NCBI GenBank assembly: GCA_902614975.1
Contig: CACMND010000003.1
Location: forward strand, 62,001 to 126,000
Direction: 5' to 3'
Length of the DNA stretch: 64,000 nucleotides
From: an uncultured Pelagibacteraceae bacterium
GTDB taxonomy: Bacteria > Pseudomonadota > Alphaproteobacteria > Pelagibacterales > Pelagibacteraceae
Shown here: positions 9,190 to 62,701 of the stretch, one piece after another
Layout of the letters: every line of letters begins with the position of its first letter
Numbering within the stretch: position 1 is the first letter of the stretch
Program-made: the position numbers and the translations under genes
The notes under the pieces: model-generated
What the model was told of the DNA's origin: nothing
Database searches by the model: none
The model's input: the letters and a program-made list of their open reading frames with translations, nothing else

Positions 9190-10305
9190 TTATAGACCAG
9201 CTTTCATAGCTTCCCACTTCTCACCAAGTTCTGTACCGTTATCAGCCCAGAAAAATGGATCAACTAAAAAGTATTTTTTAGTATTTGCAGGAGCAGTTGG
9301 CATTTGTGGCATCATTTCAGTTTTACCATCTTTGTACCAAGGCTCATTTGCTTTGATAATTTCTAGAGATGATAATCTGTATGGAGCATATGCAATATAT
9401 TTAGCGCTTCCAGCTAACATTTCAGTGTTAGTCATCATCGCTAAAGCCTTTTTAGCATTTGCTTCATCTGGTCCACCTTTTACAAGTGCGAAATATTCAT
9501 AGTCAAGACCTTGTCCATCCCATACTTGTTTAATTGGAGCACCTTCACCAACTTCAGCATTAAAGAATCTTCCATTCCAACCAGTTGCCATAACAACTTC
9601 ACCAGATACTAATAATTCTGGTGGTTGAGCACCTGCAGACCAGAATACACATCCGCCATTTGGATCTGTGCAAAGCTCTTTAATTTTGTTCATAGCTCTA
9701 TTAACACCAGCTTCAGTTTCTAGTAATTTGTAGATCTCTGATCCACCTTTACCCATGTAAACTCCGTCACCAGCTAATGCTATTTCTAGGTTTGTTAGAG
9801 CAGATTTATAAATTGCTCTTTTTCCTGGAAATTTTTTAGTGTTAAAGAAATCTTTTATAGTCGATGGTGTGCCGTCAACATTGTTTACGTTGTAAGCATA
9901 GTTCCAAGAATATAAAATGTTTCCTACAGCACATTTACTTGGCATTGGAGCAAAGAAATCTTCACTTGCAGGTGTTCCGTCTGGAGCTGCAGGGAAGTCT
10001 TTGTCAAAATCGAATTCAACGAAAATTCCTTCGTCACATCCGTTGATAGTATCAAATGCGAATACATCGATAATATCCCAAGTAATAGCACCTGCTTCTT
10101 TTTGAGCTTTTATCTCAGATAATCCACCTGAATAGTCTACCCAGTTGATATCAACACCAAGAGCTTTTGCAGTTGGATCACCATACCCTAATTTTTGAGA
10201 CTCTGTATAAGCTCCACCCCAAGATGCTACTGTAACCGCAAATGCAGATGAAGTTATTGAAAGAGCAAAAGAAAGAGCAAGTAATAATTTACTTAATTTT
10301 TTCAT
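9190..10305 (-). CDS. potD: Periplasmic polyamine-type substrate-binding protein PotD
   Basis: The 371-aa protein starts with a clear signal peptide (MKKLSKLLLALSFALSITSSAFA) followed directly by the VTVASWGGAYTESQ strand typical of PotD-class extracellular solute-binding proteins. It captures the ligand in the periplasm for PotBC-PotA. A strong GGAGGA ribosome site sits 5-6 nt before the ATG, consistent with high expression. Aromatic and acidic residues expected for a cationic ligand are present (for example IDVFAFDT, EYFALVKGG), but ligand identity cannot be read off. Neighbouring EutD/EutA-like genes leave open a compatible-solute ligand. Confidence 0.85.
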   Translation of the reverse strand: MKKLSKLLLALSFALSITSSAFAVTVASWGGAYTESQKLGYGDPTAKALGVDINWVDYSGGLSEIKAQKEAGAITWDIIDVFAFDTINGCDEGIFVEFDFDKDFPAAPDGTPASEDFFAPMPSKCAVGNILYSWNYAYNVNNVDGTPSTIKDFFNTKKFPGKRAIYKSALTNLEIALAGDGVYMGKGGSEIYKLLETEAGVNRAMNKIKELCTDPNGGCVFWSAGAQPPELLVSGEVVMATGWNGRFFNAEVGEGAPIKQVWDGQGLDYEYFALVKGGPDEANAKKALAMMTNTEMLAGSAKYIAYAPYRLSSLEIIKANEPWYKDGKTEMMPQMPTAPANTKKYFLVDPFFWADNGTELGEKWEAMKAGL

Positions 10306-10327
10306 TTATCCTCCGTTTAAACGTTTA

Positions 10328-10345
10328 ATATAAATTAATTTATAT
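10328..10345. promoter_or_regulatory. 18-bp perfect palindrome upstream of potD
   Basis: ATATAAATTAATTTATAT is self-complementary and sits about 25 bp upstream of the potD start, beside a second short palindrome (GTTTAAAC). It could be an operator or overlap the promoter. All-A/T composition makes chance occurrence more likely than for a mixed sequence. Confidence 0.3.
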
Positions 10346-10420
10346 AAGCGAAGTACAACAAAATCGTTATTCAGAGTCAACAGGCCATTTTGTTATAGGA
10401 ATACTAGACTATTTGAGAAA

Positions 10421-11506
10421 TTATTTAGGATCTAGGGCTCTAGCGTCTTGACTGTTCCAGCCTACTTTAATTTTATTACCTAATTTTAAATCTAGCTCAT
10501 TTGAGCTGTTTGGAACTTTTAAAATAAATTCTTTATTACCTAAAAGATCTAATCTTACTCTAGTATGATCACCATGGTAGATAACCTCTTCAATCTTTCC
10601 GGTTTGATTATTATCCATTTTATCTTTTGGATTTATTAATGCCCTCTCAGGTCTTATTGAAACTGTTGTTTTGTCACCTTTGGAGTTAACTGATATTGGA
10701 TTAGCTAAAATTTCACCACTTTGTAGTTTAACTTTACAAACATCTTTTGAAATGTCTGTTACTTCTCCACCGAAAGTATTATTTTCACCTATAAACTCTG
10801 CAACGAAAGAATTAACTGGCTCCTCGTATAATTTATCAGGACTTGATAATTGTTGAACCTTTCCATCATTAAACACTGCAATCCTATTTGACATTGTTAA
10901 TGCTTCTCCTTGATCATGTGTAACGTAAACCACAGTAACACCAATATTTTCATGGATGTGTTTAATTTCATATTGCATACTTTCTCGTAAGTTTTTATCT
11001 AAAGCTCCAAGGGGCTCATCCATTAAAACTACTGCTGGATCGAATACAAGAGCTCTTGCAACAGCTACCCTTTGTTGTTGTCCCCCCGACAATTGTGCAG
11101 GCATCCTACTTTCAAATCCTGAAAGAGAAACCATCGACAAAGCTTTATCTACTTTTTTATCAATCTCATCTTTTTGAACTTTTCTTACTCTCAAGGGAAA
11201 TGCTAAATTTTCATAAACTGTCATATGAGGAAACAATGCATAATTTTGAAAAACCATTCCAATTCCTCTTTTATGTGGTGGAATATTTGAAATAGGATTA
11301 GAGTCTAAATAAATTTCACCATTTGTTGGTGTTTCAAATCCAGCTAACATCATTAGACAAGTTGTTTTTCCTGAACCAGATGGGCCAAGCATAGTGATGA
11401 ACTCGCCCTCGGAGATATTAAGATTTAAATCTTTTACTACTAAGACTTTACCATCGTAACTTTTGTCAACTTTATCAAACTTAACGAATTCTGTATTTTT
11501 AGACAT
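10421..11506 (-). CDS. potA: Polyamine-type ABC transporter ATPase PotA
   Basis: The 361-aa ATPase has Walker A GPSGSGKTT, signature LSGGQQQRVAVARAL, Walker B VLMDEPLGALD and a C-terminal TOBE-like domain (from about residue 240) typical of PotA/MalK-type subunits. I chose ATG 11506 over the TTG one codon upstream used by the ORF track. It is the first transporter gene on the minus strand, 38 nt downstream of the EutD-like gene, so the hydrolase, racemase-like protein and transporter may be one transcription unit. Confidence 0.88.
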   Translation of the reverse strand: MSKNTEFVKFDKVDKSYDGKVLVVKDLNLNISEGEFITMLGPSGSGKTTCLMMLAGFETPTNGEIYLDSNPISNIPPHKRGIGMVFQNYALFPHMTVYENLAFPLRVRKVQKDEIDKKVDKALSMVSLSGFESRMPAQLSGGQQQRVAVARALVFDPAVVLMDEPLGALDKNLRESMQYEIKHIHENIGVTVVYVTHDQGEALTMSNRIAVFNDGKVQQLSSPDKLYEEPVNSFVAEFIGENNTFGGEVTDISKDVCKVKLQSGEILANPISVNSKGDKTTVSIRPERALINPKDKMDNNQTGKIEEVIYHGDHTRVRLDLLGNKEFILKVPNSSNELDLKLGNKIKVGWNSQDARALDPK

Positions 11507-11544
11507 CAAGTGTTTAAAACATTTAAGAAGTTAATTATCAATAG

Positions 11545-12717
11545 CTAATAGTTCTTTATATGTAGCTCTTTTGGAAAATTACAGAACAATTCACAACCTT
11601 TGTCGGTAACTCGGATTGCTTCAGATGCTTCTACCCCCCAATCACCAAACTGCATTACTGCAATCATATGAAAACAAACATTTGGTTCAAGTACTGTCAT
11701 ATCACCTTTATAAATATTTAAAGTATGCTCTCCCCAATCTGGTGGATATCCGATACCTATTGAGTAACCCGTTCTTGATTTCTTCTCTATACCATATTTA
11801 TCTAAAATTTTCCAAAAGGCTTGGGCAACATCATTTGCTGTATTTCCCGGTTTTGTAGCATCAATTCCAGCTTGTAAAGCTTCTATAGTTTTATTCATTG
11901 TATCTATTTTTAATTGATCAGGCTTACCTAATAAAATTGTTCGAGCCATAGGTGCATGGTATCTTTTATAAACACCTGAAAGTTCAATTATAGTTGCTTC
12001 ACCTTCAACAAATTTATCTTGTGTTGCTGTTAAATGAGAAGCAGATGTGCCTTTTCCAGTTGGAAGAAGCGTTGCAATACTAGAATATTCACCTCCAAAT
12101 TCTTCTGTGCCATAAAACAAAGACTTTTGAATTTCTCCAACAGCATCGCATTGTCTTGTACCAGGTTTAATTACTTCCATTGCGGTTTGCATTCCTTTTT
12201 GAGAAATTAAAGCAGCAGACTTCATATAATTTATCTCTGCATTAGATTTAATTAATCTAGCCCAATTAACTAGTCGATCAGAGTCAATAATGTTTGCATT
12301 TGGTAATCCCTGTTTAATCTTTTCATAACAAAAAGCTGTAAAATAATGAGCATCCATTTCAACTCCAATAGACAGTTTATCCCATTTTTTTTCTTCAATT
12401 ACTTTGGTCAAGTAATCATAGGGATGTTTTGGCCAAGTATGAATATAACTCTCATCATAAACAATAATATTATCTTTATTTAAATAGGTTTTTATGTATG
12501 CCCCACCTGCATCCTGGTCTCTAACAAAGCAAATTGGTTCTTTTGAATCAACATGCACTAATACACATTGTGCATAATAAAAAGACCAAGCATCGTAGCC
12601 TGTAAGATAATTCATGTTATTTGTGTCGTGAGAAATGATTAAATCAATTTTTTTCTCTCTCATCAGAGATTGAACTTTTAATAGTCTTTGTTTGTATTCC
12701 TCTTTTGAAAAAGACAT
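11545..12717 (-). CDS. M24-family hydrolase resembling ectoine hydrolase (EutD/DoeA)
   Basis: The 390-aa protein has the creatinase/prolidase N-domain plus a pita-bread C-domain. The usual M24 metal ligands are not conserved: the D-x10-D region reads ELSGVYKRYHAPMART and the GHGIG His position reads GYSIGIG. Loss of the metal site, together with the KRYHxPxART motif, matches ectoine hydrolases, which are metal-independent members of this family; Glu245 falls near the Glu reported as covalent nucleophile there. An EutA-like gene lies 3 nt upstream, as in ectoine utilisation loci. No EutE/DoeB deacetylase or EutBC is visible, so creatinase-like or another ring-opening or C-N hydrolase activity remains possible. 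Confidence 0.6.
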   Translation of the reverse strand: MSFSKEEYKQRLLKVQSLMREKKIDLIISHDTNNMNYLTGYDAWSFYYAQCVLVHVDSKEPICFVRDQDAGGAYIKTYLNKDNIIVYDESYIHTWPKHPYDYLTKVIEEKKWDKLSIGVEMDAHYFTAFCYEKIKQGLPNANIIDSDRLVNWARLIKSNAEINYMKSAALISQKGMQTAMEVIKPGTRQCDAVGEIQKSLFYGTEEFGGEYSSIATLLPTGKGTSASHLTATQDKFVEGEATIIELSGVYKRYHAPMARTILLGKPDQLKIDTMNKTIEALQAGIDATKPGNTANDVAQAFWKILDKYGIEKKSRTGYSIGIGYPPDWGEHTLNIYKGDMTVLEPNVCFHMIAVMQFGDWGVEASEAIRVTDKGCELFCNFPKELHIKNY

Positions 12718-60237: not shown

Positions 60238-62388
60238 TTATTTGCCTATAGATATTAAGGTTAAGTCATCACTTAACTTATTATCCCCAGTAGAATTAAT
60301 TACCGTATTTGATATATCTGATAGTTGTTTGCTAGAATCTGTATTAAAATTTTGCTCTATAATTTTTAATGAACCATCTATCCCTATTTCTTCTCCTGAA
60401 CTATTTAAGCTTTCAGATAAACCATCAGTGAAAGCATAAAATCTGTTATTTTCTAGCTTAACTTTGTGAGTTTTATAAACTGATTTATCTTTTTGAAGTA
60501 TTACGCCCATAGGTGGAGAATTACTTTCAAATTGTTCATAATTTCCAGATGATGATCTAATTATAGCTGGCTGATGACCACCATTTACCCATCTTAATTC
60601 ATCCGTCCTCATATTATATTCTCCCAATATACTTGTAACGAACATACCGCCGGTTTTAGTTAAAAACAGATCATTATTCATATGAAACATCATTTCGTCT
60701 GGATCTACTTGGTCTCTAGACATTATTTCGAAAAGAGTTGATGCTTTTGCCATTACCATTCCAGCATGAATTCCTTTGCCCGCAACATCTGCAATGATAA
60801 AATAAACACTATCATTATGAGGATAAAAGCTGAAGAAATCTCCAGAAACTTCTCTAGCAGCAATGTTAATTCCATGCACAGGGTAATTTTCTAAATTCCT
60901 CTTTGGCAAAAAGTTTTCTTGGACTTTTACTGCAAGTTTAACTTCGTTTGAAATTCTATCTCTCCATACTTTCTTTTCAGCTTCGCTAGTTTCTAGTTTA
61001 CTCATCAATCTGTTGTAATAAAGCCCAATCACACCTCCAGCTGTAAATGGATCTTGCGGACCTCTAATTGTTAAATCACCAGATTCAGATTGTTTTTCTA
61101 AAATTGTAATTAAATCATGCTCTACGGAAGTTGCATTATGCTCAGCAATATTCAAACCTAATTCTTCATGTAGTGGACTTACTCTTAATGGATAAAAGTA
61201 ATTTAAAATTTTCAATAAAATATACGATCCAAAAAATGAGAATGTACCGATTGAAACAATTCCAATAAACTGTACTTTAATTTGCTCCAATCTAGTTAAC
61301 CCAGTTCCAAGTATTTCAAGATCACTAAAGAATCCAACTGCAATAGTTCCCCAAACTCCTGCTGCCAAATGAACTGGAACAGCGCCAACAACATCGTCTA
61401 TTTCAAATTTATTTAAAAATTCATTTACAAAAATTGCTACCACCGCACCAATAATACCTACAAAAATTGATGTAACAGAAGTCATCGAATTACATCCTGC
61501 TGTAATTGCAACCAATCCTGCAAGCGGTCCAAGAATTACATAATAAGGATCTGGTTTTTTAAATAATGCAAATGAAATCCCAAGACCAGTTAGTAATCCA
61601 AAAGAAGCAGCTAGAAATGTGTTTATTAAAATTAGCGGAACTGCTTCATCCATAGCTCCATTACTTCCACCGTTAAAACCAAACCATCCAAACCATAAAA
61701 TTAAAGTTCCCAAAACTGCCAAAGGAAAACTTGAGCCTGTGAATTTTCCTTTATTAGCATCTGAATATTTTCCAATTCTTGGACCTAAAATTAAAACTGC
61801 TGATAATGCAATCCAACCTCCAACTGAATGAACTATTGTGCTTCCTGCAAAATCAACAAATCCAATATCTGTTAACCATCCAGTTGTTTTAACTTGTCCA
61901 GTTACCGCAAGTAATTGTCTTGTAGCATCTATATTATTCAAATAACTTGATGACCATGCCCAATGACCAACAATTGGATATATAATCCCTGTTGCTATTA
62001 TTGTAATGATTAAATAACCATTAAACTTCATTCTTTCAGCAACTGCTCCTGAAACAATTGTAGCTGCAGTTGCAACAAACATTGCCTGGAATACAAAATA
62101 TGTCATGTATTCAGCTTGATCAGTTTTAAAAAAGAACAAATCAGTTCCAAAATAGCCGTTAAAACTCTTTCCAAACATTAACCCGAAACCAAATAACCAA
62201 AAGATTACAACCGCTAAGCCAAAATCGGCTGCGTTTTTAAGAGCTACATTAATACTATTTTTATGTCTTGATAGACCGGTTTCCATACACATAAAGCCTG
62301 CCTGCATTATGAAAACAAGTATTGCACAATCTATAACCCAAAGGGTATCTACAAATGACTTTACTGATTCCAGATCTATGTTCTCCAT
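60238..62388 (-). CDS. Ammonium transporter (Amt) fused to SpoIIE-type PP2C phosphatase
   Basis: The 716-aa protein joins two modules. Residues 1-420 are a full Amt channel: FMCMETGLSRHKN, Asp179 in VDFAGSTIVH, and the twin His at 187 (IVHSVGG) and 340 (VPVHLAAGVWG), ending in the family's EELGLNIAEH tail. Residues about 425-475 form a linker. The rest is a PP2C/SpoIIE (RsbU-like) phosphatase with acidic ligands in REVSGDFFSFY, IIADVAGKGIHAG, AFTDGLSES and KLSDDLTLI, all intact. Its plausible role is an ammonium-sensing transceptor that dephosphorylates a STAS antagonist; the STAS gene at 63753 is a candidate target. Confidence 0.92.
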   Translation of the reverse strand: MENIDLESVKSFVDTLWVIDCAILVFIMQAGFMCMETGLSRHKNSINVALKNAADFGLAVVIFWLFGFGLMFGKSFNGYFGTDLFFFKTDQAEYMTYFVFQAMFVATAATIVSGAVAERMKFNGYLIITIIATGIIYPIVGHWAWSSSYLNNIDATRQLLAVTGQVKTTGWLTDIGFVDFAGSTIVHSVGGWIALSAVLILGPRIGKYSDANKGKFTGSSFPLAVLGTLILWFGWFGFNGGSNGAMDEAVPLILINTFLAASFGLLTGLGISFALFKKPDPYYVILGPLAGLVAITAGCNSMTSVTSIFVGIIGAVVAIFVNEFLNKFEIDDVVGAVPVHLAAGVWGTIAVGFFSDLEILGTGLTRLEQIKVQFIGIVSIGTFSFFGSYILLKILNYFYPLRVSPLHEELGLNIAEHNATSVEHDLITILEKQSESGDLTIRGPQDPFTAGGVIGLYYNRLMSKLETSEAEKKVWRDRISNEVKLAVKVQENFLPKRNLENYPVHGINIAAREVSGDFFSFYPHNDSVYFIIADVAGKGIHAGMVMAKASTLFEIMSRDQVDPDEMMFHMNNDLFLTKTGGMFVTSILGEYNMRTDELRWVNGGHQPAIIRSSSGNYEQFESNSPPMGVILQKDKSVYKTHKVKLENNRFYAFTDGLSESLNSSGEEIGIDGSLKIIEQNFNTDSSKQLSDISNTVINSTGDNKLSDDLTLISIGK

Positions 62389-62455: not shown

Positions 62456-62701
62456 TTAATCCTTTTTTTTCCAGATAAAATAAAACAGATAAGGAGAAAG
62501 GGCTGGAACAATCCCAAACCAAAACCACTCATCCCATCTAAAGCTTTTATCTAACATCGGACTTTTCAATCCATTCCACCAAGTTAAATATCCTATAAAT
62601 ATTATCCATGCTAAACTTGCGGTTGCATAGATTTTAAAGTTTTTTGAAAGATCTCCTGAAAAGACCAATTTAACTTGTTCAACATATTTATTGAAGTCCA
62701 T
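62456..62701 (-). CDS. Small membrane protein of unknown function
   Basis: An 81-aa protein with two hydrophobic stretches (ASLAWIIFIGYLTWW and WFWFGIVPALSPYLFYFIW) and a charged C-terminal tail. The start is a good ATG 9 nt after the pilin gene stop, so it may be co-transcribed with the pilins. I do not recognise a family. Confidence 0.6.
   Translation of the reverse strand: MDFNKYVEQVKLVFSGDLSKNFKIYATASLAWIIFIGYLTWWNGLKSPMLDKSFRWDEWFWFGIVPALSPYLFYFIWKKKD

Follow-up and report, generated by a model that had tools for sequence, protein, structure and literature searches.

The window analysed here, a stretch of 64,000 nucleotides from an uncultured Pelagibacteraceae bacterium, encodes a 716-residue protein in which an ammonium transporter (Amt) domain is joined through a helical linker to a SpoIIE-type phosphatase. 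The fusion is real, conserved and lineage-restricted within the sampled genomes. Receptor Amts are a known class, and a SpoIIE phosphatase is an output new to it. From sequence comparisons we consider it probable that the fusion acts as an ammonium receptor-phosphatase driving a PII-free STAS/RsbW partner switch; its most likely client is either the type IV pilus system or one of the sigma factors for housekeeping or heat shock. The wider proposal, that SAR11 bacteria without PII sense external ammonium through a receptor-phosphatase that drives the one partner switch they possess, and that the client of this switch is the type IV pilus or a core sigma factor, is held more tentatively and with less than even confidence. 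If this is true, one of the most abundant bacterial groups in the ocean would have a previously undescribed way of sensing ammonium. The features of the locus are listed in Table 1.

Table 1. Features of the fusion gene and its neighbourhood, in window positions unless a contig handle is given.
Feature	Position	Strand	Evidence or remark
Amt-SpoIIE fusion gene, 716 aa	60238..62388	(-)	ORF (ATG at 62388, stop at 60238), Pfam, homologues
Amt domain, predicted receptor, residues 17-420	61129..62340	(-)	Pfam, residue mapping, AF2, Foldseek
Putative transmission linker, residues 405-493	60910..61176	(-)	helix 422-436, connector, long helix 450-493 (HAMP-like)
SpoIIE/PPM phosphatase domain, residues 526-714 (Pfam span)	60247..60813	(-)	Asp517 metal ligand just before the span
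81-aa membrane protein	62456..62701	(-)	upstream of the fusion and in one gene run with it; also in L041, L042 and L051
Type IV pilin-like protein, 139 aa	62711..63130	(-)	N_methyl motif, synteny
Type IV pilin-like protein, 155 aa	63143..63610	(-)	N_methyl motif, synteny
STAS anti-sigma-antagonist-type protein (RsbV-like), 99 aa	63753..64000	(+)	extends 52 bases beyond the window end
RsbW-type kinase	L007:7057-7485		after the STAS gene; followed by GspF/PilC and GspE/PilB genes

The reading frame of the fusion contained 716 codons with 0 internal stops, and both Pfam domains, Ammonium_transp (E 9e-111) and SpoIIE (E 9e-35), scored far over their curated cut-offs. This agreed with the sequence-only reading, which had described the fusion and had named a frameshift or an assembly join as the way in which it could have arisen artificially. 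Of 300 genomes sampled from the genus (labelled SAR11/Pelagibacteraceae), 78 had the same fusion; these comprise the genomes that matched at E = 0 and, in addition, G987 and G988, in which the copy is cut by the contig. It was also carried by the one-contig, 99%-complete genomes G1068-G1070. The fusion is no artefact because it is recurrent across the genus and present in finished one-contig genomes. Pairwise dN/dS values against the window gene were about 0.12 or less for the Amt, the linker and the phosphatase wherever they were computable, far below 1 in both halves. Together these results ruled out an assembly or frameshift artefact, and the chance that the gene is an artefact or a decaying fusion is vanishingly small.

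The taxonomic spread of the architecture, which the same reading had suggested searching, was confined to a narrow group in our samples. At the level of the order, the fusion was found in 83 of 397 genomes; G1076, from another genus of the same family, was a carrier, and the other family sampled had 0 fusions. Among the matches listed, the relatives were single-cell genomes labelled 'uncultured Pelagibacteraceae', with protein identities of up to 99%. When a profile of the fusion protein was run against about 740 genomes from elsewhere in Pseudomonadota, about 45 of them had Amt fusions in which the Amt and the linker matched to model position 461-497. Those checked had kinase or GGDEF-EAL outputs, and no Amt fusion match in the ~740 genomes ran on into SpoIIE. 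A search of plasmids gave no Amt-SpoIIE match over 80% coverage; across phyla, the coverage consisted of these plasmids and of the matches listed by a pattern scan of genome contigs. A literature search, with most subscription journals outside its coverage, returned no paper on Amt-SpoIIE and only Amt-kinase proteins as related work.

The N-terminal half showed the Amt fold with the twin histidines (H187 and H340), the conserved aspartate (D179), a Phe gate (F104 and F238) and the selectivity-filter residues W145 and S242, and it thus belongs to the Amt/Mep/Rh family. In a maximum-likelihood tree, the window Amt fell within a clade of 34 rows that were all output-fused and included Ks-Amt5 and Sd-Amt1 (SH-aLRT 96); one row, L002, labelled 'otherfus', duplicates the window protein. 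The host's own stand-alone Amt grouped with other alphaproteobacterial stand-alone Amts in the same tree. The nearest relatives outside SAR11 were an Amt-GGDEF (L052), an Amt-HisKA-HATPase-REC (L053), an Amt-MCP protein (L054), and Amt-HK (L121-L129) and Amt-PAS-GGDEF-EAL proteins (L134-L138). A Foldseek search with the AF2 model, a monomer with a mean pLDDT of 86.8 and a pTM of 0.62, placed the ON and OFF states of 'Receptor Sd-Amt1' and a 'Sensor Amt Protein' in the top ranks. The Amt half is thus assigned by homology to the receptor type, unlike the host's own uptake type. The sequence-only reading had correctly reported the twin His and the Asp, and had proposed a working channel or receptor from them. 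The receptor was supported by the clade in the tree. A working channel is doubtful, as the Amt half groups with receptors and its relative Ks-Amt5 has lost efficient ammonium transport (PMC5764959).

The best structural and sequence match was Sd-Amt1 from Shewanella denitrificans (PDB 8qj3, 8qj4 and 8qpf), with 46% identity over the Amt fold and a TM of 0.95. It has the same ammonium-site residues, and the alignment continued unbroken across the linker as far as residue 481 of the window protein, but the solved chain has no match to the SpoIIE half. The output of Sd-Amt1 is presumably a diguanylate cyclase, and its nearest annotated analogue in this comparison was the Amt-GGDEF protein. Ks-Amt5 from Kuenenia stuttgartiensis (PDB 6eu6), like the window protein, combines a receptor Amt with a C-terminal output, and it binds two ammonium ions via Q24, E31, N47, D50, T51, T109 and T112 (PMC5764959). 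Q24, E31, N47, D50 and T109 are all kept in the window protein as Q29, E36, N52, D55 and T110, and T51 and T112 are replaced by F56 and S113, as in Sd-Amt1. Both the window protein and Ks-Amt5 have an elongated loop 5 of about 19 residues, which aligned nearly without gaps and was modelled by AF2 as a coil at residues 202-220 between helices 183-201 and 221-241. The two proteins differ in the bulky residues F27, Y30 and F34 that close the pore of Ks-Amt5, of which the first is kept as F32 and the other two are M35 and L39; Sd-Amt1 differs there too. They also differ in their output, a histidine kinase in Ks-Amt5 versus the SpoIIE phosphatase, and in that Ks-Amt5 was described as having no HAMP-type transducer while the window protein has a HAMP-like linker.

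The Q/E/N/D/T site was invariant in 25 of 25 SpoIIE fusions and in 17 of 17 kinase, GGDEF and MCP fusions. Among 90 stand-alone Amts in the sample, 36 also carried the five-residue signature, which was for this reason rejected as sole proof of sensing, with which it is nevertheless consistent. Its presence in some stand-alone Amts could suggest that the Amt-derived domain reads an input other than ammonium, such as methylated amines, pH or the state of the membrane. We consider this very unlikely given that all ammonium-site and selectivity-filter residues are kept and that the proteins most closely related to it are established receptors for ammonium.

A linker spanning residues 405-475 is common to the kinase, GGDEF, GGDEF-EAL, MCP and SpoIIE fusions, with the shared pattern LRVS..E..GLN..EH.A followed by GD......PFT..G.I...YN. 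In the AF2 model, the long second helix of the linker is predicted to enter the phosphatase, which matches the helical linker of SpoIIE/RsbU-type phosphatases. Weak HAMP matches were obtained for 5 of 10 linkers, the best at 23.2 bits against a Pfam cut-off of 25, and the linker of the window protein itself gave no HAMP match. A formal HAMP assignment was rejected as all scores were below the cut-off, and the linker is only called HAMP-like here. Activation of RsbU involves the folding of a flexible helical linker into a coiled coil, through which the PPM domains dimerise, and it has been proposed that helical linkers allow sensors to be exchanged among kinases, cyclases and PPM phosphatases (PMC12143880). 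The shared Amt linker fits this sensor-swap proposal, which the fusion supports, and the fusion also adds Ser phosphatases to the known receptor-Amt outputs. Symmetry is a point against the receptor-phosphatase model, in that Amts are trimers (PMC5764959) and RsbU-type phosphatases are activated as dimers (PMC12143880).

The phosphatase half contains the PPM acidic motifs GD517, D534VAGKG, TD655G and D707D708LT, which were invariant in 26 homologues. The metal ligands D517, D534, D655 and D707/D708 were thus all in place, as the sequence-only reading had claimed, and the loss of ligands that it had said could overturn the claim was not seen when the motifs were aligned with solved SpoIIE- and RsbX-type phosphatases, with which they line up intact. 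Foldseek ranked the phosphatase domain of RssB first for this half. The genome has two more SpoIIE phosphatases, a GAF-linked and a CHASE2-linked one (L008:5494-6783 and 9706-11763), which are about 3 kb apart on another contig. There are thus three phosphatases and a single STAS candidate in the genome.

The STAS/RsbW pair is encoded 1.4 kb from the fusion, between the pilin and the pilus-motor genes. Searches of the whole genome assembly, with a completeness of about 91%, gave a single STAS match and a single HATPase_c_2 kinase over the family cut-off, and both adjoin the fusion. With one STAS protein carrying a phosphorylatable Ser and one HATPase kinase, the pair has the composition of an Rsb-type partner switch. 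The STAS motif MDSSG, which holds the phosphorylatable serine, and the kinase N-box ELVLAIAEAAQN were invariant across the compared loci, and some relatives had a second STAS copy in which MDSSG was kept. Of the 11 loci that were informative (L007 counted, the short L049 left out), 9 retained the neighbourhood of pilin, pilin, fusion, STAS, RsbW and GspF-GspE. Universal synteny was rejected, as in the other two, L043 and L048, the fusion lies elsewhere, apart from STAS/RsbW. RsbW was found in 16 of 19 genomes with the fusion and in 9 of 42 without it (Fisher p 8e-6, in a test that takes no account of phylogeny), and the three fusion-bearing genomes in which it was not detected are partial. Just outside the window, the PilB/GspE-type ATPase encoded beside the STAS/RsbW pair (L007:8727-10352) bears an MshEN domain, which elsewhere is a c-di-GMP-binding module.

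A receptor that reads ammonium could also be coupled to a phosphatase that acts broadly on other phosphoproteins and bypasses the local STAS/RsbW pair. This would suit the 1014 Ser/Thr/Tyr phosphosites of HTCC1062, a strain without an annotated protein phosphatase (PMC13198564), and the separate location of the fusion in L043 and L048. However, characterised SpoIIE-type PPM domains with intact motifs target STAS proteins (PMC8256260), exactly one STAS protein was found, and the synteny held in most loci, so we regard a broad phosphatase as unlikely. In HTCC1062, the sole Ser/Thr kinase in the annotation is RsbW, and protein phosphatases went unrecognised (PMC13198564); a receptor-phosphatase would close both gaps in those SAR11 strains that carry one.

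Of the proposed coupling of external ammonium to a sigma factor or another STAS-controlled switch, as first put forward for this gene, the STAS partner was supported, since the adjacent STAS and RsbW were the only ones detected, and a dedicated alternative sigma factor was not. Only two Sigma70_r2 frames, RpoD-like (633 aa) and RpoH-like (299 aa) in length, were present, and at a genome completeness of about 91% no dedicated alternative sigma factor was found. A sigma-B-type target was rejected as no such sigma factor was found. With only the RpoD-like and RpoH-like factors present, a dedicated alternative sigma factor is therefore unlikely. The switch may have a part of the pilus or one of the core sigma factors as its client, and there is precedent for each. 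RsbU/RsbV/RsbW from Bacillus subtilis resembles the window system in having a PPM phosphatase with a helical linker, a STAS antagonist with a Ser and a HATPase kinase, but the input to RsbU is RsbT instead of an Amt, and no sigma-B-type factor was found in the window genome. HmpU/V/W from Nostoc punctiforme is an RsbU/V/W set linked to pilus-driven motility without a known sigma client (PMC6495340, PMC8256260), in which the STAS protein HmpV is thought to be the output; it belongs to another phylum and has no Amt receptor. In Chlamydia trachomatis, RsbU/V/W is a partner switch in a small genome with the housekeeping sigma-66 as its reported client (PMC8256260), but without an ammonium receptor.

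PII (GlnB/GlnK) was absent from 61 of 61 genomes of the genus that were searched, in a search that was positive for 13 of 14 control genomes. SAR11 bacteria have very few regulators, and a nitrogen response independent of PII has been reported for them (Smith et al. 2013, cited in PMC13198564). The Amt half could then be a real transporter, with a phosphatase tail that regulates uptake by itself or by other Amts and replaces the missing PII/GlnK; every pore residue is kept, and the genome has two further Amts besides the fusion. This is improbable in view of an Amt half that clusters with receptors and apart from uptake Amts, a substrate pair of STAS and RsbW that is encoded next door, and a Ks-Amt5 that has the same site and lacks efficient transport (PMC5764959).

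In the receptor-phosphatase model that we favour, ammonium in the Amt vestibule would occupy an in-membrane site of the Ks-Amt5 type, the residues of which are conserved. A conformational change would pass via loop 5 and the HAMP-like two-helix linker to the long helix leading into the SpoIIE/PPM domain, and this helix would set the phosphatase's switch helices in the manner of RsbU. The neighbouring STAS protein would be dephosphorylated by the phosphatase and would then capture the adjacent RsbW-type kinase so that the client is released. We lean modestly towards ammonium activating the phosphatase. The GAF-SpoIIE and CHASE2-SpoIIE proteins probably feed the same switch, and a single STAS/RsbW node would then receive ammonium and two other inputs. 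The client would most likely be the type IV pilus machinery that flanks the pair, as for HmpU-V-W in Nostoc, or, on the pattern of Chlamydia, a sigma factor for housekeeping or heat shock, because only RpoD and RpoH are present. With a putative ammonium receptor that is linked to an RsbW switch, ammonium sensing in SAR11 becomes directly testable.

One of the further Amts in the genome, a divergent third Amt (L010:4359-5759), lies between glutamate-synthase-like and glutamine-synthetase-like genes, which suggests a separate cluster for amine or ammonium uptake. Roughly 18 genomes of the 300-genome genus sample had an additional fused paralogue (about 750 aa), often in tandem, and two sequenced copies of it were 53% identical to the first copy. 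In L051, this second Amt-SpoIIE paralogue (L051:11891-14253, 750 aa, ~53% identical) follows the first copy immediately downstream. Past its stop codon there is a 44-codon remnant that resembles the C-terminus of the first copy and has an in-frame stop inside, and this remnant is a scar of duplication or insertion.
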